Assembly: GCA_023150845.1 (NCBI GenBank)
Contig: JAKLKD010000033.1
Location: 1-38,502, forward strand
Source: Myxococcota bacterium
GTDB lineage: Bacteria; Myxococcota_A; UBA796; CAJQPC01
Direction: 5' to 3'
Length of the DNA stretch: 38,502 nucleotides
Made by a program: the position numbers and the translations under genes. Shown one piece after another: positions 6,549-14,633 of this stretch. Each line of letters begins with the position of its first letter. Position 1 is the first letter of the stretch. The notes beneath the pieces are model-generated. The model was not told the origin of the DNA, ran no database searches, and saw only the letters and a program-made list of their open reading frames with translations.

Positions 6549-7550
6549 ATGTCCAACAGCGAGAACTCAGCACCCAAGGCCGACACTCTGTTCAGCGTTG
6601 GCGCTGGGCGCCCGCAGCTTGAGGAGCCGGCTGAGGTCACGATGAAGCTCGCCCTGCCGCGAGGCCGCCGGGGACGGGGCGTGCTCATCCCGACGGTGCG
6701 TGTGGTGGCCGGGCCGGACCTGCTCCAGTTCGTGACCCTCTCGGGCGGGCAAGAGATGGTCATCGGCCGCGACGAGTCCGCGGGCCTCGTGCTCGGCGAC
6801 GCCTCGGTCTCCCGAAACCACGCCTCCTTACGCTGCGACGACAGCGGCGAGATCTCGGTCTTTGACCTCGGCAGCACCAACGGCACCGCGGTGAACGGCG
6901 CCACGGTGCAGCGCGCCCTGCTGCGCCCCGGGGACCACCTGGAGATCGGCGCCGTCTCCCTGCGCCTCGACCTCCTCGGCCTCGATGAGCTGCACCACCT
7001 CAGCCGTGTGCTGGAGCGTATGCGCGCCGCGGGCACCGACCCCCTCACCGGCCTGCAGACCCGCGCCTGGCTCGACGAGCGCCTGCCGTCTCTGCTCGCC
7101 CGCTGCGAGGACGCCGGGCAGCCCTTCTCGGTGATCTTCCTCGACGTGGACCGCTTCAAGTCCATCAACGACACCTTCGGCCACCGCGTCGGCGACCAGG
7201 TGCTCCAGGCCCTCGCTCGCCTCGTGCTCCTCGACGTGCGCGACAGCGACACCTGCGCCCGCTACGGCGGCGAGGAGATCCTCATCTTCTTGCCCGGCAC
7301 CGACGAGCGCGGGGCCGCGGACGTCGCCGAGCGCCTGCGTAAGACCATCGGCACCCACGACTGGTCCCGCACCGCGATGGGCCTCAAGGTCACCGCGAGC
7401 TTAGGGGTCGCCCAGAAGCTCCCCGACGAGGAGATCGTGCTGTGGCTCGACCGCGCCGACCGGGCGATGTATCGGGCGAAGCAGTCGGGCCGAAACGCCG
7501 TGCGCTCGGCGAGTGAGCCCGCTCTGGCCGCGGCCCCCTCTCCGGGCTGA
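6549..7550 (+). CDS. FHA-GGDEF diguanylate cyclase
   Basis: This is a soluble 333-residue protein predicted to make cyclic di-GMP from two GTP. An FHA phosphothreonine-binding domain (~52-140) shows GRDE (73-76), SVSRNHA (86-92) and DLGSTNGT (106-113). A GGDEF domain follows (~160-325), with DPLTGL at 164-169, FLDVDRFKSIND at 197-208 and the active-site variant GGEEI at 240-244. An RxxD inhibitory site (Arg231-Asp234) lies five residues before it, so product feedback is expected. No membrane segment is visible. GGAG at 6535-6538 precedes ATG 6549. It is the first of three same-strand signalling genes, which suggests the FHA domain reads a Ser/Thr-kinase signal in the same circuit. The last ~10 residues are a Pro/Ala tail. 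Confidence 0.9.
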   Translation: MSNSENSAPKADTLFSVGAGRPQLEEPAEVTMKLALPRGRRGRGVLIPTVRVVAGPDLLQFVTLSGGQEMVIGRDESAGLVLGDASVSRNHASLRCDDSGEISVFDLGSTNGTAVNGATVQRALLRPGDHLEIGAVSLRLDLLGLDELHHLSRVLERMRAAGTDPLTGLQTRAWLDERLPSLLARCEDAGQPFSVIFLDVDRFKSINDTFGHRVGDQVLQALARLVLLDVRDSDTCARYGGEEILIFLPGTDERGAADVAERLRKTIGTHDWSRTAMGLKVTASLGVAQKLPDEEIVLWLDRADRAMYRAKQSGRNAVRSASEPALAAAPSPG

Positions 7551-7592: not shown

Positions 7593-9599
7593 ATGCAAGA
7601 CGGCTCCCGCTCCCGGCACCTCCCCGCCACGGTCGGCATGGCCCTGGTGGTGTTGTTCTTCTCGGTGTTCGGGCTCGTCAACACGACCTCACGTTACCAA
7701 GACCGGGAGCGGCGCGCGGTCATCGAGGCCGAGCGAGACCTCGACCGCCTCGCCGACCGCTGGGAAGAGCGCGTCGGGGACGCCGTGACGGCGTTCATGG
7801 ACAACATCGACCCGCCGCTGGTGGAGTCGAGCCTCGCCGAGCTGGAGCGCACCCGCGCCGAGCGCACCCCTTGGCTCCAGGCGCTCTACCTCTGGCGAGA
7901 CCGCGGCGGCGGCCGCGAGGTGCTCTACCCCAAAGACCCGCCGGACTACAACCTCCCCGCGCTCAACGCCGAGTCCTGCATCCGCCAGGCCACCGCCGCC
8001 CGTGAGGCGGGGGACGAGGCCGGGGCCCGGGTGGCCTACACGCTCTGCGCCGACCACGGGGCGGAGCCCGCCCTGCGCCTCTTCGCCCGGGTTCAGCTCG
8101 TGCAGAGCCTGCTCGACGCCGGGCTTCCCCAAGACGCGCTCCTGGCCGCCGACGCCGCGCCCCTGCCCGCCCGCATCGACGAGTCCTTACGCGGCGGCCT
8201 GCCCCTCACCGGCGTGCTGAGCCTGCAGCAGCTCGCCGCCTCCGCCGCCCGAGACAGCGGCGACCGCGACGGGTCCGCCCGCCGCCTCAAGACCTTAGGC
8301 GAAGAGATCGGCGCGCTCCGCGGCCCCGGCCTCGACCGCTCCTTGGGCAAGCTCAAGAACTCCGTCATCCCCGACCTCCGCGACCTCGGCGCCGCCGCCG
8401 AGGCCCGGGCGCTCGAGCCCCTCGCCGCCCTGGCCGACCGCCGCCTCGCCGGTTGGGGTGAGTTTGAGCGTGGGCTGCTGCGTAACGCGAGCCCCGAGAC
8501 CGGCCTGCACGCGGTCTTTGACCAGTACGCGCCCCGCTCCTACCTGCTCATCTGGACCTGGCTGCCCAAGGATCAGATCTTCGCCGCGGTGCAGATCGAC
8601 CAGCCGACCCTGCTCGACGAGCTCCTCGCCGAGCAAGGTGAGCAGGGCAGCCTCGACGACCACCTCATCGTGCGCACCGTGAACGACGTCTGGGTCGCGG
8701 GCGGCGGCGACGTCGAGGGCGTCGCGGTGCAGAAGCCCCTCGGCGGCCTCCTCGCCCACCTCAAGCTCGCCTACACCGACTCCCGGCTGTCCGGCGCCCG
8801 GGAAGAGAACACCCGGCAGACCCTCGCCGAGTCCATCTCCGTCTTCGTGATGAGCCTCATGGGGGTGTGGGCGCTCTTGGCCCTGCAGAACGCCTACCGA
8901 AAGGAGCAGGAGCTCCTCGACCGCCAGCGGGAGTTCGTCACCCGGGTCACCCACGAGCTCAAGACGCCCCTGGCCGGGATCCGCGTCATGGCCGAGAGCC
9001 TGGAGCTCATCCCCGAGCAAGATCCCCGCACCATCGAGAGCTACGCCGGGCGCATCGTCACCGAGAGCGACCGCCTCACCTCCCGCATCGAGGAGATCCT
9101 CGCCGTCGCCCGGGCCCAGACCCCCGCGGCGAAGGCGCCCTACGACCTGCGTGAGCTGCTGCACCAGATCGCTGACGAGTGGTCTCCCCGGATGAACGAC
9201 GCCGGGGTGCGCCTGCACCTCCAGCTCGGCGAGCTCACGGTGCCCCTGGTCGGCGACGCCAAGCTCGTGCGCGACGCCTTGGTCTGCCTGCTCGACAACG
9301 CCCTCAAATACCGCAACACCGAGCGCCGCGATCCTCAGGTCTGGCTCATCCTCCGCCACGACCCGCGCTACGCCACGGTGGAGGTCCTCGACAACGGGAT
9401 CGGCGTGCCCGCGAACAAACGAAAGGTCATCTTTGAGCGCTTCGTGCGCATCGAGGGGCCCGGCCGCGGCAAACAGGGCGGGCACGGCCTGGGGCTCGCC
9501 TTTGTCGCCGAGGCGATCCAATCCCAGCGCGGCCGCGTCGAGTGTCGTGAGGCCACCACAGGTGGGGCGAGATTCATCGTCCGCCTGCCGTTATCATAG
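7593..9599 (+). CDS. Membrane sensor histidine kinase with large periplasmic sensor
   Basis: The protein has 668 residues. TM1 is ~14-30 and TM2 ~415-431; the ~380 residues between are predicted periplasmic, with a helical, TPR-like middle (~125-290). There is no recognisable HAMP domain: TM2 leads through a short helix to the dimerisation box with phospho-acceptor His454 (THELKTPLAG). The ATPase domain shows the N-box with Asn569 (LLDNALKYRN), DNGIG at 600-604 and GHGLGL at 630-635, so it should be catalytically competent. It is followed 30 bases later by the OmpR-type regulator at 9630, its probable partner. The ATG start at 7593 has only a weak AAGG site. The signal sensed cannot be read from the sequence. 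Confidence 0.92.
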   Translation: MQDGSRSRHLPATVGMALVVLFFSVFGLVNTTSRYQDRERRAVIEAERDLDRLADRWEERVGDAVTAFMDNIDPPLVESSLAELERTRAERTPWLQALYLWRDRGGGREVLYPKDPPDYNLPALNAESCIRQATAAREAGDEAGARVAYTLCADHGAEPALRLFARVQLVQSLLDAGLPQDALLAADAAPLPARIDESLRGGLPLTGVLSLQQLAASAARDSGDRDGSARRLKTLGEEIGALRGPGLDRSLGKLKNSVIPDLRDLGAAAEARALEPLAALADRRLAGWGEFERGLLRNASPETGLHAVFDQYAPRSYLLIWTWLPKDQIFAAVQIDQPTLLDELLAEQGEQGSLDDHLIVRTVNDVWVAGGGDVEGVAVQKPLGGLLAHLKLAYTDSRLSGAREENTRQTLAESISVFVMSLMGVWALLALQNAYRKEQELLDRQREFVTRVTHELKTPLAGIRVMAESLELIPEQDPRTIESYAGRIVTESDRLTSRIEEILAVARAQTPAAKAPYDLRELLHQIADEWSPRMNDAGVRLHLQLGELTVPLVGDAKLVRDALVCLLDNALKYRNTERRDPQVWLILRHDPRYATVEVLDNGIGVPANKRKVIFERFVRIEGPGRGKQGGHGLGLAFVAEAIQSQRGRVECREATTGGARFIVRLPLS

Positions 9600-9629
9600 G
9601 CGCTCATTCACGCGCTCAGGAGTCCGCCG

Positions 9630-10328
9630 ATGGAGCCTACGGCCCGCATCATCCTCGTCGAAGACGACGACACCATCGCCCTGGGCGTCACCAAGATGCT
9701 GGAGCACGAACGCTACGAGGTCGAGCGCTACGACAACGGCGAAGATGGGCTCGCCGCCGTGCGCCGCGACCCCCCGGATCTTTTGCTCCTCGACGTGATG
9801 TTGCCCGGCATGGACGGCCTCGCGGTGCTTCGCGCCGTGAAGAACGAGAACGCCCATGTGCAGATCATCATGCTCACCGCGAAGGGCGAAGAGATCGACC
9901 GGGTGCTCGGCTTAGAGATGGGCGCGGACGACTACGTCACCAAGCCCTTCTCGCTGCGGGAGCTCATCGCCCGGGTGAAGGCGCGCCTGCGGGGCCGCAC
10001 CACGGAGCCCCGCCCGGTGACCGCCGAGACCTTCACCTTCGGCGACTGCACCGTCGACCTGCGCCGCCGGGTGCTCTGGACCCGCGGCGAGGAGCACCGC
10101 CTCACCACCCACGAGGCCCGGGTGCTCGACTTCTTGATCTCCCACCGCGGCGCCGACGTGCCCCGGGAGACCTTGCTGCAGGAGGTCTGGGGCTACAGCT
10201 CGACGTCTTTGACCACCCGCACCGTCGACAACCAGATCCTCAAGCTGCGCAAGAAGGTCGAGGCCGTGCCGTCGGATCCGCGCCACATTCTCACCGTTCA
10301 TGGGACTGGATATCGTTTTGAGCCGTAA
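9630..10328 (+). CDS. OmpR/PhoB-family response regulator
   Basis: This is a 232-residue DNA-binding regulator. The receiver domain (~5-118) has acidic residues Glu11, Asp12 and Asp13, phospho-acceptor Asp55 (LLLLDVMLPGMDG), Thr83 and Lys105 (TKPF). A winged-helix output domain (~135-230) ends in the typical TVHGTGYRFEP. AGGAG lies 7 bases before ATG 9630. It is encoded directly after the histidine kinase and is almost certainly phosphorylated by it. Its target sites are not identifiable here. Confidence 0.95.
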   Translation: MEPTARIILVEDDDTIALGVTKMLEHERYEVERYDNGEDGLAAVRRDPPDLLLLDVMLPGMDGLAVLRAVKNENAHVQIIMLTAKGEEIDRVLGLEMGADDYVTKPFSLRELIARVKARLRGRTTEPRPVTAETFTFGDCTVDLRRRVLWTRGEEHRLTTHEARVLDFLISHRGADVPRETLLQEVWGYSSTSLTTRTVDNQILKLRKKVEAVPSDPRHILTVHGTGYRFEP

Positions 10329-10357: not shown

Positions 10358-11236
10358 ATGCCCCCCGACATGCTCCGTTACCTCCTCGTCTCCTACGGCC
10401 TCGCCGCGCTCATCGGCGGCGGCGCGGGCCTCATCGGCCAGGGCCCCGGCACCCTCGGCTTCGTCGTCTTGGGCGCCGTGATGATGTGGACCCCCGCCGT
10501 CGGCGCCTGGGCCGCCCAGCGCGCCCGGGGTGAGGCCCTCGTCGAGCCCCTGGCGCTGCGCCCGGTCCTGAACCGCTGGCTGCTCGTCGCGGCCCTCGCG
10601 CCGCTGGGCCTCGCCGTGCTCACCACGGCGTTTCAGCTCCTCATGCCCGGCGTACGCTTCAACCCCGACCCGGCGAACATCCTGGGCCGGGTGGCGGGCG
10701 CGCTGACCCCGGAGCAGCTCGCCGAGGTCGGCGCCAAGCTCAGCGAGCTCCCCGTGCACCCCTACCTCCTGAGCCTCGTCCAGGCCGTCGGCGCCGGGGT
10801 CACGGTGAACGCCCTCTTCGCCTTCGGCGAGGAGGTGGGCTGGCGCGGCTACATGGCGCGGGCCCTGGCCGGGCGGGGCTTCTGGAGCGTCTCGCTCCTG
10901 ACCGGCGTCGCCTGGGGCCTCTGGCACGCCCCGGTGATCCTCCAGGGCTACAACTACCCCCAGCACCCGATCCTCGGGGTGCCGCTCTTCGCCGTGTTCT
11001 GTGTGCTCTTGAGCCCCCTGCACACCCTCGCCCGGGAGCGCGGCGGCAGCGTCTGGCACGCCGCCGTGCTCCACGGCACCTTCAACGCCGCCGCCGGGAT
11101 CCCGCTCCTCGTCGTCGAGGGCGGGGACGACCTCACCACCGGCGTGGTGGGCCTCCCCGGCCTGATGAGCCTCGTCGTCGCCAACGGGCTCATCTGGATC
11201 TGGCGGCGGGCCGAGGGCGCCAGCGCCGCTCAGTAG
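10358..11236 (+). CDS. CPBP (CAAX/Abi-type) intramembrane metalloprotease
   Basis: This is a 292-residue multi-pass membrane protein. The three family motifs are present: EExxxR (Glu158, Glu159, Arg163 in FGEEVGWRGYM), the WGLWHAP segment (His190) and HxxxN (His239, Asn243). Together these make up the glutamate/histidine active site of the CPBP family (Rce1-like prenyl-protein proteases and bacteriocin-immunity or Abi proteins). Several hydrophobic helices flank them. The substrate is unknown. It starts 29 bases after the response regulator, so it may be in the same transcript. Its stop codon lies inside the 3' end of the convergent haloperoxidase gene (7-base overlap). An alternative start is ATG 10370. 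Confidence 0.88.
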   Translation: MPPDMLRYLLVSYGLAALIGGGAGLIGQGPGTLGFVVLGAVMMWTPAVGAWAAQRARGEALVEPLALRPVLNRWLLVAALAPLGLAVLTTAFQLLMPGVRFNPDPANILGRVAGALTPEQLAEVGAKLSELPVHPYLLSLVQAVGAGVTVNALFAFGEEVGWRGYMARALAGRGFWSVSLLTGVAWGLWHAPVILQGYNYPQHPILGVPLFAVFCVLLSPLHTLARERGGSVWHAAVLHGTFNAAAGIPLLVVEGGDDLTTGVVGLPGLMSLVVANGLIWIWRRAEGASAAQ

Positions 11237-14037
11237 GCCGTGCCGTCCATGTAGGTCCGCGCGAGCTCCCAGGCGCTCGCGCCGATCTCCGCGCCTTGGG
11301 TGCGGCCGTCGCTGTCGTCGGGCCAGATGTGGATGCCGCCCCAGATGCGGGACTGGCCGGCCTGGTCCGCGGCGTCGTAGTACGTCGCCCACTGCAGCCG
11401 CACCTCGTGGATGGGGCCATCCTCAAACACGAGGTAGGCGCTGGGGTTGGCCACGAACTCGCCGAGCCCGCCCGGGAAGTAGGGGCTCCCGGTGAAGGAG
11501 CTGAGCACCTCGGCGGCGGAGCGGCTGAACGTGCTGTGCCCGGAGATGTAGCCGGGGAAGCCCGGCGTCACAAAGGTGCGGCGCTGGTAGGGGATCCACT
11601 CCAAAGCGCGCACCCAGGCGTGGCCGCCGACGTCGTTGGCGCGGTCGCCGGGCTCCCCACGCCAGGTGTAGACGGCCAGCTCGCCAATGAACCAGCGCAG
11701 GTCGTAGTGGCGCTCGCCGGGCGCGGCGCTCTCCTCGGTGATCAGCTCGACGACGCCGTCCTCAAGGGGCAGGCCGTTCGGGTCGTAGCTCGGCAGGCTG
11801 GGGTCGGAGGACTGACCGAGGCTCGCCAGGTACCGCACGAGCTGGATGGGCCGGGCGGCGGTGTAGTCACGCTTCACGCCCCAGGCCGTGATCGCGGCGT
11901 CGTGGACCGCGCCGTTCAGGGCGAGGTAGAGGCTCACGTCCCACTGCAGGCGGTCCACCGGGTCCCCCTCGCCGCCGATGCGCAGCTCGTCCGCGGCCAA
12001 GGTATCGCTCACGTCGTTGGCGATGACGTTCCAGTGGCCGGGCGGGGTCTCCGACTTGGGGCCATCCGCCCAGTACTCGGCGAGCACCCGGCCAAAGTCC
12101 GAGCGCAGCACGACGTTGGACTCATAGGCCTGCCCGGTGACGGGGTTCACGGAGTAACCGACGCCGTCGTTGGTCCCGAGCGGGTTGTTGCCGAAGGCCC
12201 CCGGCGAGAGGTCGACGGTCGTGGTGTCGGAGACGTCGAGCCAGGCGGTCTTCCGGATGACGTCCATCACCCAGTCAACGAGCTCGGGGTCAGAGAGCGT
12301 CGGCGGGTCCATCGTCTCGGGCGGCCCGGCGATGGAGAAGGGCTCGACGAGGCCCCAGGTTGGGCAGATGTAGCTCTGCAGGCCGGAGTCGAGGACGATG
12401 CCGTTCTGGGTCTCGGCCAGGGCGATGTTGAGCAGGGTCCACTCGCCGGGGTCCACGATGGCGCCGACGCCGGGATCGTCCACGACGATGGGCGGGTTCG
12501 GTGAGGTCCAGCCCGTCGTGTCCTTGTAGTTGTCGTGCTCGTTCGCGCCGTCGTCGGCGTAGTGGTTGATGATGGCCTCAGCGACGCGGTTCCCCAGGGC
12601 GATGGGGTCATCGCCGTCGGTGTGGGTGTCCGAGGGGTCGAGACCCAGCACCCCCATGAACTTGTCGTAGCAGTCCGTCGAGGTCGCGCCGCCGATGGCG
12701 GCCTCGTAGCGGTGGTAGAGCACCCGGTACGCCGCGTAGGAGATCGCGATCTCCCGGTCACCCTCGACGTCGTCGCTCGTGAGCTTCTCCGAGGTCAAGA
12801 GCCCGTCGGCCACCTCGTCATAGGCCGCCCAGGCGTCCCACATCGCCGCGCTGACGTGGAAGAGGTTGCGGGCGTGAACCCCAGGCCGCGGGATGTCCCG
12901 GCGGATGCTGTTGATCATCTGCTCGTTCCACCGATGGGCGATGGAGCCCTCGGGGACGGGATCCTCACCCCCCGCGGGGCAGGCCGTCGAGGCCGGCTCG
13001 ATCTCCGCGGCGACAAACTGCTCCGTCACCTTGTCCGTGCGCCAGATGACGCCAGCGTTCAGCGCGCCGGTCAGCACCGAGCCACCGACGGTCCAGAGCG
13101 ACTCGCCGTCATGCCAGGCGCCGTGCAGAGACTCCGGCGGGGTCTCCTCGTCGTTGGGGATGTAGGTCCACTCCCCGCCTTCGCGGCGGAAGATCGCGGC
13201 GTCGGCGCCGGTCACCCACAAGGCGCCGCCGTCCTCAAAGCTGAGGCCCTGGAGCACGGGGGCCCCGGCCGGGGTCGCGTCGGTGAAGCCGCGCTCGGCG
13301 TCGCCCAAGAGCACGACGCCGGTGGAGTCCCCGCCGGTCACGGCGATCTGGGTCTCGTCGCCGGTCACCGTGAAGAGGCGCGCCGTGGTGCCGCTGGGCA
13401 CGACCGACCAGGTCGAGCCGTCGTAGTGGAGGATGGCGCCGTTGCCGCCGACGACGTACACGTCGTCCTTCGCCCGGCCCCAGACCTTGAGCAGCGCCGG
13501 GAGCTCCCCGTTGGCGTCCAGGGGCATGTCGTCGGGCAAGGAGACGTTCACCCACTCCATGCCGTCAAAACGCCAGATGAAGCCCCAGCGCCCCGCCCAG
13601 CCGCCGACCGCCCAGACCTCGTCGGGAGAGGCGCCCCAGAGGCCATAGACCGTGTCGCGGGCGAGGCCCGGGGTCTTGTGCCGGGTGACCGTCGTGCCGT
13701 CCCAGGAGAGGATGGTCGCCCCGGCCCCGGCGAACATCACCGAGTCCGTCGCGAAGGCGTGAACCCACCACAGGTCGTAGCTCGACGTGCCCGAGAGCGT
13801 CGTCCACTGCGCGCCGTCCCAATGCACGGCGAGGCCGCCCGTGCCTGGGTCGGCGCCGACCACCCACACGTCGTCCGGGGCGGTGCCGCCCACCGACATG
13901 AACGCGGCGAGCTCGTGGCTGCCCGCCGGGAGCACCTCGGCGGTGAAGGGGGTCTCGTCGCTGTCCGTCGGCTCAGGCGCGTCCTTACAGGCGAAGAGGA
14001 TGGACAGGGGGAGGAGGAGGAGCAGGTTCCGGGTCAT
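11230..14037 (-). CDS. Lipoprotein: beta-propeller fused to vanadium-dependent haloperoxidase-type domain
   Basis: This protein has 935 residues. The signal peptide ends in the lipobox-like LFAC, with Cys17 as the expected lipidation site. Residues ~40-335 contain about seven repeats of the 'DDVWVVG...WDG..W' kind, suggesting a seven-bladed propeller. Residues ~360-935 match the PAP2/vanadium haloperoxidase superfamily. Every vanadate ligand of the fungal chloroperoxidase has a counterpart with matching local spacing: Lys722 and Arg729 (7 apart), Ser832-Gly833-His834 (YISGHSTF), and Arg897 and His903 (6 apart, RIWGGIH). Oxidation of halide by peroxide at the cell surface is the family-based prediction; a phosphatase is the alternative. 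A possible promoter is at 14085-14114. It converges on the CPBP gene with a 7-base overlap. Confidence 0.88.
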   Translation of the reverse strand: MTRNLLLLLPLSILFACKDAPEPTDSDETPFTAEVLPAGSHELAAFMSVGGTAPDDVWVVGADPGTGGLAVHWDGAQWTTLSGTSSYDLWWVHAFATDSVMFAGAGATILSWDGTTVTRHKTPGLARDTVYGLWGASPDEVWAVGGWAGRWGFIWRFDGMEWVNVSLPDDMPLDANGELPALLKVWGRAKDDVYVVGGNGAILHYDGSTWSVVPSGTTARLFTVTGDETQIAVTGGDSTGVVLLGDAERGFTDATPAGAPVLQGLSFEDGGALWVTGADAAIFRREGGEWTYIPNDEETPPESLHGAWHDGESLWTVGGSVLTGALNAGVIWRTDKVTEQFVAAEIEPASTACPAGGEDPVPEGSIAHRWNEQMINSIRRDIPRPGVHARNLFHVSAAMWDAWAAYDEVADGLLTSEKLTSDDVEGDREIAISYAAYRVLYHRYEAAIGGATSTDCYDKFMGVLGLDPSDTHTDGDDPIALGNRVAEAIINHYADDGANEHDNYKDTTGWTSPNPPIVVDDPGVGAIVDPGEWTLLNIALAETQNGIVLDSGLQSYICPTWGLVEPFSIAGPPETMDPPTLSDPELVDWVMDVIRKTAWLDVSDTTTVDLSPGAFGNNPLGTNDGVGYSVNPVTGQAYESNVVLRSDFGRVLAEYWADGPKSETPPGHWNVIANDVSDTLAADELRIGGEGDPVDRLQWDVSLYLALNGAVHDAAITAWGVKRDYTAARPIQLVRYLASLGQSSDPSLPSYDPNGLPLEDGVVELITEESAAPGERHYDLRWFIGELAVYTWRGEPGDRANDVGGHAWVRALEWIPYQRRTFVTPGFPGYISGHSTFSRSAAEVLSSFTGSPYFPGGLGEFVANPSAYLVFEDGPIHEVRLQWATYYDAADQAGQSRIWGGIHIWPDDSDGRTQGAEIGASAWELARTYMDGTAY

Positions 14038-14129: not shown

Positions 14130-14633
14130 ATGTCGCACCTCGCGCCGATGTTGGCGCTCCTCGCGCTGATGGGCTGTCCTGGCCGGGACAACATCGACAC
14201 CGCCTGCCCGGCTCTGGAGAGCAGCGTCGAGCTCGGCACCGGCACGGAGAGCTTCATCCCCCTCGAAGACGGCGACCCGCTCCGCTTCGAGCGGGGCCCC
14301 CAAGGCGGCTACCACGCCTACGGCAGCCTGCGCGCGACGGGGGTAGACGCCGGAGACCCGAACGCCCCCTTTGACCTCGAAAACCCCCACATCTGGTTCA
14401 AGCTTGAGCGCGACGGCGAAGAGCTGGCGCTGCTGCTCGACCAGCCCCGGCTGCTCCAGCCCCTCGACGACGAGGGCCACGTCGGCGTGCTCGGTGAGCT
14501 CGTCATCTTCAGCTTCGCCGACCCTCCCGCGCTGGACGGCGCCGCGGTGACCTTCCGCGGCGGCCTCACCGACTCCTGCGGCCGCGGAGGGGAGTCCAGC
14601 CACGAGGTCGTCCTCAACCTCGGCGCGCTCTGA
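14130..14633 (+). CDS. Small lipoprotein of unknown function
   Basis: The protein has 167 residues. A short signal sequence ends in the lipobox ALMGC, with Cys16 as the lipidation site. The mature part looks like a single beta-rich domain (SFIPLEDGDPLRFERG; HIWFKLERDGEELALLL) and carries Cys26 and Cys149, which might form a disulphide. I do not recognise a family. It is divergent from the haloperoxidase lipoprotein, with 92 bases between, and the two may be expressed together. It converges on the biotin-carboxylase-like gene. Confidence 0.75.
   Translation: MSHLAPMLALLALMGCPGRDNIDTACPALESSVELGTGTESFIPLEDGDPLRFERGPQGGYHAYGSLRATGVDAGDPNAPFDLENPHIWFKLERDGEELALLLDQPRLLQPLDDEGHVGVLGELVIFSFADPPALDGAAVTFRGGLTDSCGRGGESSHEVVLNLGAL

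Follow-up and report, generated by a model that had tools for sequence, protein, structure and literature searches.

A 38,502-nucleotide stretch of DNA from a Myxococcota bacterium (assembly GCA_023150845.1, contig JAKLKD010000033.1; hereafter the window), belonging to a genome of 7.1 Mb, carries at 11230..14037 (-) a gene for a lipoprotein of 935 amino acids. This assignment is based on the reading of the open reading frame (ORF), in which ATG is the sole start codon available, and on comparison with relatives. The predicted protein is composed of a signal peptide with lipobox (residues 1-17; 13987..14037; LSILFA-C17 with Lys at +2, recognized in the sequence), an N-terminal seven-bladed beta-propeller built of DDVW-type repeats (residues ~39-335; 13033..13923; AlphaFold2 and Foldseek) and a vanadium-dependent haloperoxidase (VHPO) domain (residues ~345-935; 11233..13005; Pfam, phmmer and Foldseek), all encoded on the (-) strand. 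The original prediction, that a propeller is joined to a complete vanadate site within one lipoprotein, is thus borne out by Pfam, AlphaFold2, Foldseek and residue conservation.

Pfam searches identified two domains in the enzyme half of the protein: DUF6851 at residues 395-516 (62 bits, cut-off 27; E=1e-16) and VCPO_2nd at residues 809-929 (27.5 bits, cut-off 27; E=3.9e-6). No NCBIfam model matched the protein, and neither FG-GAP nor UnbV_ASPIC domains were found in it by Pfam. Comparison with solved structures using phmmer gave XhnO11 (9l8x; E 1.7e-14) and 9ptr (E 4.1e-14), and further sequence relatives of the VHPO domain with solved structures are NapH3 (8cxl), NapH1 (3w35) and the Zobellia enzyme (4cit).

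Structure prediction, which had been proposed as a check, was performed with AlphaFold2 on an 84-row alignment of the window protein and proteins of the fetched loci. The resulting model (920 residues; model residue n corresponds to protein residue n+15) has a mean predicted local distance difference test score (pLDDT) of 92.6 and a predicted template modeling score (pTM) of 0.90, the latter suggesting that the propeller and VHPO halves may be held in a defined mutual arrangement. The propeller consists of seven consecutive groups of 3-4 strands, mostly with pLDDT >90, and an N-terminal strand (residues 39-41) is able to close blade 7. The matches of this half in a Foldseek search of the PDB were seven-bladed YCF48 and WD40 propellers, so that the approximately seven repeats noticed initially can be given as exactly seven four-stranded blades. 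The C-terminal half adopts the two four-helix-bundle VHPO fold; the leading Foldseek matches in the PDB were VHPOs and their homologs, namely NapH3 (E = 3.2e-19), NapH1, XhnO11, Curvularia vanadium chloroperoxidase (VCPO) and Zobellia iodoperoxidase (E 3e-19 to 3e-10).

The vanadate site is placed within this second half. Lys722 (11872..11874), Arg729 (11851..11853), Ser832-Gly833-His834 (11536..11544), Arg897 (11347..11349) and His903, at the place of the vanadium ligand (11329..11331), occupy the positions of Lys353, Arg360, Ser402-Gly403-His404, Arg490 and His496 of VCPO, respectively. Two more shared residues are Trp719 (11881..11883), at position Lys-3 relative to the active-site Lys, and Phe827 (11557..11559), at position His-7 relative to the catalytic His, which corresponds to Phe397 of VCPO. 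None of the seven vanadate positions varies among the relatives covering the region (46/46 with a propeller, 64/64 others), and Trp719 and Phe827 are likewise invariant (110/110), in a set that includes a few duplicate fetches of one genome. Since the loci entering this count were found via the SETPPGHW and DGANE motifs or by profile, and not via the vanadate residues, the way in which they were selected does not account for the invariance. The family signature SETPPGHW itself (residues 662-669; 12031..12054, defined by alignment) served as a search seed, and its invariance in those loci is therefore partly by construction.

In VCPO, vanadate is contacted by Lys353, Arg360, Ser402, His404 and Arg490, with His496 as ligand (PMC10278073). 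The profile alignment also placed the vanadate positions column by column against the solved Zobellia galactanivorans iodoperoxidase VIPO1 (4CIT). The earlier claim that every vanadate-binding position is present with matching spacing therefore stands, with the residues as originally placed.

Vanadate-site motifs of this kind are common to acid phosphatases (PMC4859513) and apo-VCPO is able to act as a phosphatase (title of PDB entry 3bb0), which raises the alternative that the protein is a secreted acid phosphatase, binding phosphate at this site and hydrolyzing phosphate esters held by the propeller. We consider this unlikely, as no PAP2 (PF01569) match was obtained for the protein at E up to 1, and within the top 50 Foldseek matches the VHPO domain drew VHPOs throughout and no phosphatase. 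In addition, the two residues held in common with VCPO, Trp719 and Phe827, do not vary in the family, and both are missing from the single PAP2 protein that this genome encodes. The propeller-VHPO gene was not among the matches of the genome-wide PF01569 search.

The closest known structures are Streptomyces-type VHPOs and homologs, NapH1 (3W35/3W36), NapH3 (8CXL) and XhnO11 (9L8X), which share the two-bundle VHPO fold with the window protein (Foldseek TM 0.78-0.83 on the target) and have detectable sequence similarity to it (~18% identity). They lack a propeller, whereas the window family adds the SETPPGHW segment and the lipobox. Since NapH3 is described as a VHPO homolog that catalyzes a rearrangement, the window protein might likewise be a VHPO-fold enzyme with a specific non-oxidant chemistry, the propeller serving as a substrate receptor. 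This explanation appears improbable: NapH3, NapH1 and XhnO11 do not have the His of the S-G-H motif (SGF, SGS), but the window family retains it in 110/110 relatives, as does the Zobellia enzyme, and no conserved biosynthetic neighborhood accompanies the gene.

The Zobellia iodoperoxidase (4CIT/4USZ) also lacks a propeller, gave no sign of being a lipoprotein in this comparison and is only 16% identical to the window protein, but its FPxYxSGHS and SRxYGGIH motifs and the Trp at Lys-3 are matched in the profile alignment. The Curvularia inaequalis VCPO (1VNC, 1IDU), a fungal enzyme without a propeller, has the seven ligand positions with the same spacing, the Trp at Lys-3 and the Phe at His-7, although it was undetected by sequence search and its fold match is weaker (target TM about 0.51-0.56). 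A Trp at Lys-3 is present in the Curvularia and Ascophyllum enzymes (PMC11871015), and it occurs in enzymes of differing halide preference. Since halide preference is not traceable to a single residue (PMC11871015), no halide was assigned to the window protein, and the residue preceding the catalytic His is not a reliable guide to chloro- versus bromoperoxidase activity.

The propeller-VHPO fusion is not confined to the window. Eight genomes from its own genus or order contain full-length relatives (50-86% identity), and the gene is also carried by cultured Corallococcus strains (L025, L028). The same-genus copy (G001:C699 and C126) is split over two contigs, with a frame change near residue 630, and may reflect either an assembly error or real decay. 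Across the phylum, VHPO-domain matches were found in 55 of the 379 Myxococcota genomes sampled, and the propeller was present in all of the 30 best myxococcal matches fetched. The lipobox (LLLLLPLSILFA-C17 in the window protein), already noticed in the initial reading, occurs in 38/38 propeller relatives with a complete N-terminus (37 by pattern, and L124, ‘ASVGC’, by eye), and thus in every intact N-terminus of the propeller clade.

A tree built from 105 VHPO domains groups the propeller-bearing rows in one clade (support 100) comprising 44 rows, 41 of them with a propeller. The exceptions are two propeller-less myxococcal lipoproteins (L035 and L080) and a contig-edge fragment (L038); since the first two are nested within the clade, they probably represent propeller loss. 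One row labeled Candidatus Hydrogenedens (L048) falls inside this clade and encodes a myxococcal-type propeller-VHPO; it may be a mislabeled single-cell genome or a case of transfer. The fusion is therefore a conserved myxococcal architecture of essentially one origin, and the device described as unusual in the original prediction is less so, being shared by dozens of Myxococcota. Since stand-alone propellers of this type are common in related genomes, the fusion probably arose by joining a local lipoprotein propeller to a widespread VHPO domain.

The same VHPO domain was found in Chloroflexota, Actinomycetota, Verrucomicrobiota, Planctomycetota, Candidatus Binatota, Methylococcus and others, among the best 80 of 572 candidate stretches kept in the cross-phylum search. 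Where such a copy is paired with a propeller, the partner is of the FG-GAP/ASPIC-UnbV (CRTAC1-like) type. Within eight loci, from Candidatus Binatota, Actinomycetota and Opitutaceae, an FG-GAP/ASPIC-UnbV set lies at the N-terminal side of the VHPO domain in one protein (L032, L067, L068, L070, L082 and L085 by Pfam; L081 and L088 by profile). In 22 further loci, forming part of a Chloroflexota-Actinomycetota clade (L036, L039, L040, L041, L043, L044, L049-L053, L055, L056, L058, L059, L061, L063-L066, L077 and L078), an FG-GAP/ASPIC gene directly adjoins the VHPO gene and lies on its strand. It is located upstream in some loci and downstream in the rest, and 41-434 bases separate one domain from the other. 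Four rows of this clade have no such partner, two of which (L042 and L046) stop at a contig edge.

Pfam analysis of ten such neighbors (one of them, L026, myxococcal) detected both FG-GAP and ASPIC in nine and FG-GAP only in L061. In 9 of the 12 adjacent-type genomes searched, ASPIC/UnbV gave a single match per genome, and in L036 and L039, the two whose coordinates were converted by hand, this match is the VHPO neighbor itself. Verrucomicrobial and planctomycetal copies instead have C-terminal tails that resemble, by eye, sorting segments of a dockerin-type or PEP-CTERM-like kind, as would fit an exported enzyme.

ASPIC was also considered as a usual neighbor of the myxococcal propeller-VHPOs and rejected: it was found beside them only in L026/G080, and possibly L048, and is elsewhere mostly multicopy and unlinked. 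The myxococcal locus concerned (L026:6284-8797; G080:C57) has both partners: its VHPO is fused to a propeller, and an FG-GAP/ASPIC gene converges on it at a distance of 71 bases.

Since the window propeller has no Pfam FG-GAP or ASPIC match, two different propeller families are tied to one enzyme domain. This is the strongest reason to regard the propeller as functionally coupled to the enzyme and not incidental; the variable order of FG-GAP/ASPIC and VHPO genes that nevertheless stay together was counted in favor of the same view. The enzyme-propeller pairing thus appears to be a genuine module, widespread and as yet uncharacterized. A literature search for haloperoxidases with ASPIC/UnbV or with a beta-propeller found none, most subscription journals being outside its coverage. 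The enzyme superfamily is already known; as far as the literature was searched, neither the fusion to a propeller nor the pairing with a second propeller family across phyla has been described.

Next to the window gene, and divergent from it, lies a gene (14130..14633 (+)) for a small lipoprotein of 167 amino acids without a Pfam family. It is modeled with confidence (pLDDT 93.3) as a beta-sandwich, for which only weak Ig-like matches were obtained. A profile built for this protein showed that its members adjoin propeller-VHPO genes in L132, L135, L141, L047, L150, L149 and L024, and lie slightly further away in L062. A phylum-wide search with the profile added nearby copies from outside the profile build in G071 and G214. 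In G083 (L087/L131) the domain is also fused to the VHPO C-terminus, and a second fused copy in G083 was likewise added by the phylum-wide search. With about 10 loci in which it stands next to a VHPO gene, this recurrent neighbor is rarer than FG-GAP/ASPIC. It was rejected as an exclusive partner of VHPOs, since the domain occurs in 163/379 Myxococcota genomes, although its top-scoring members do adjoin VHPO genes. The idea that the window gene belongs to a conserved operon was likewise rejected: among 21 propeller loci there is no common neighbor but the small lipoprotein.

On the other side of the gene, an FHA-GGDEF protein is encoded at 6549-7550 (+) beside a histidine kinase/response regulator pair (7593-10328); this arrangement is not conserved with the VHPO gene. 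A role in anti-phage defense was rejected, as PADLOC gave no match.

Taken together, we favor, with moderate confidence, the interpretation that the product of the window gene is a VHPO-superfamily lipoprotein of the cell envelope that performs vanadate-dependent oxidation of halides by H2O2, with the propeller docking the target. The protein would be exported and lipidated, and its two-bundle C-terminal domain would bind vanadate through His903 together with Lys722, Arg729, Ser832, Gly833, His834 and Arg897. Judging from the intact site and the fold, this domain would then use H2O2 at the membrane to turn a halide into a hypohalous species. The propeller, which is rigidly attached, most likely serves to dock a substrate, a polymer or a partner, and the oxidant would thereby be made beside its target. 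Such a role is supported by the separate coupling of the VHPO domain to a second propeller family. Outside Myxococcota, the FG-GAP/ASPIC-UnbV propeller, fused or supplied by an adjacent gene, probably takes the same role.

Several observations weigh against this interpretation. The vanadate and phosphate sites are identical, the same residues binding phosphate in related phosphatases. The fold alone is no proof of halide oxidation, as NapH3 is a VHPO homolog catalyzing a rearrangement (PDB title, 8CXL), and no conserved H2O2-producing neighbor of VHPO genes was found. The location in the envelope has to be considered as well. Lys at +2 was reported for 8/12 inner-membrane lipoproteins of Myxococcus xanthus, and Ala at +7 for 7/10 matrix lipoproteins (PMC3222651). 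With Lys at +2 and Pro at +7 in the window protein, this rule, which may not carry over between classes, gives surface exposure no support. The +2 residue varies in propeller relatives, being mostly Pro, Asp, Gly or Ser. The surface oxidant device as originally pictured remains a plausible hypothesis.

The Lys at +2 would, by the Myxococcus rule, fit an inner-membrane lipoprotein facing the periplasm, and thus an H2O2-detoxifying peroxidase, in which halide turnover would consume periplasmic peroxide and halogenation would be incidental. Such a function has been proposed for soil haloperoxidases (PMC4926216). However, it leaves the two separate propeller pairings unexplained, and hypohalous acid (HOX) formed in the periplasm would do damage; we therefore regard detoxification as very unlikely.

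Halide oxidation by a propeller-docked envelope enzyme may extend beyond Myxococcota. It is possible, though we propose it only tentatively, that the proteins described here constitute a multi-phylum extracellular module, in which two unrelated propeller families were separately coupled to VHPO to aim a hypohalous oxidant at a bound target, the Ig-like lipoprotein being a third part in some myxococcal lineages.

Should the enzyme prove to be an active haloperoxidase, an oxidant-producing protein, exported or anchored, would be present in many Myxococcota, Chloroflexota, Actinomycetota, Verrucomicrobiota and Planctomycetota of soil and water. Halogen-cycle surveys may miss such enzymes, because in Pfam they match DUF6851 and VCPO_2nd only, and none of the NCBIfam models recognizes them. 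If true, the pairing would also suggest what one set of ASPIC/UnbV (CRTAC1-like) propellers does in bacteria, namely to act as partners of haloperoxidases.

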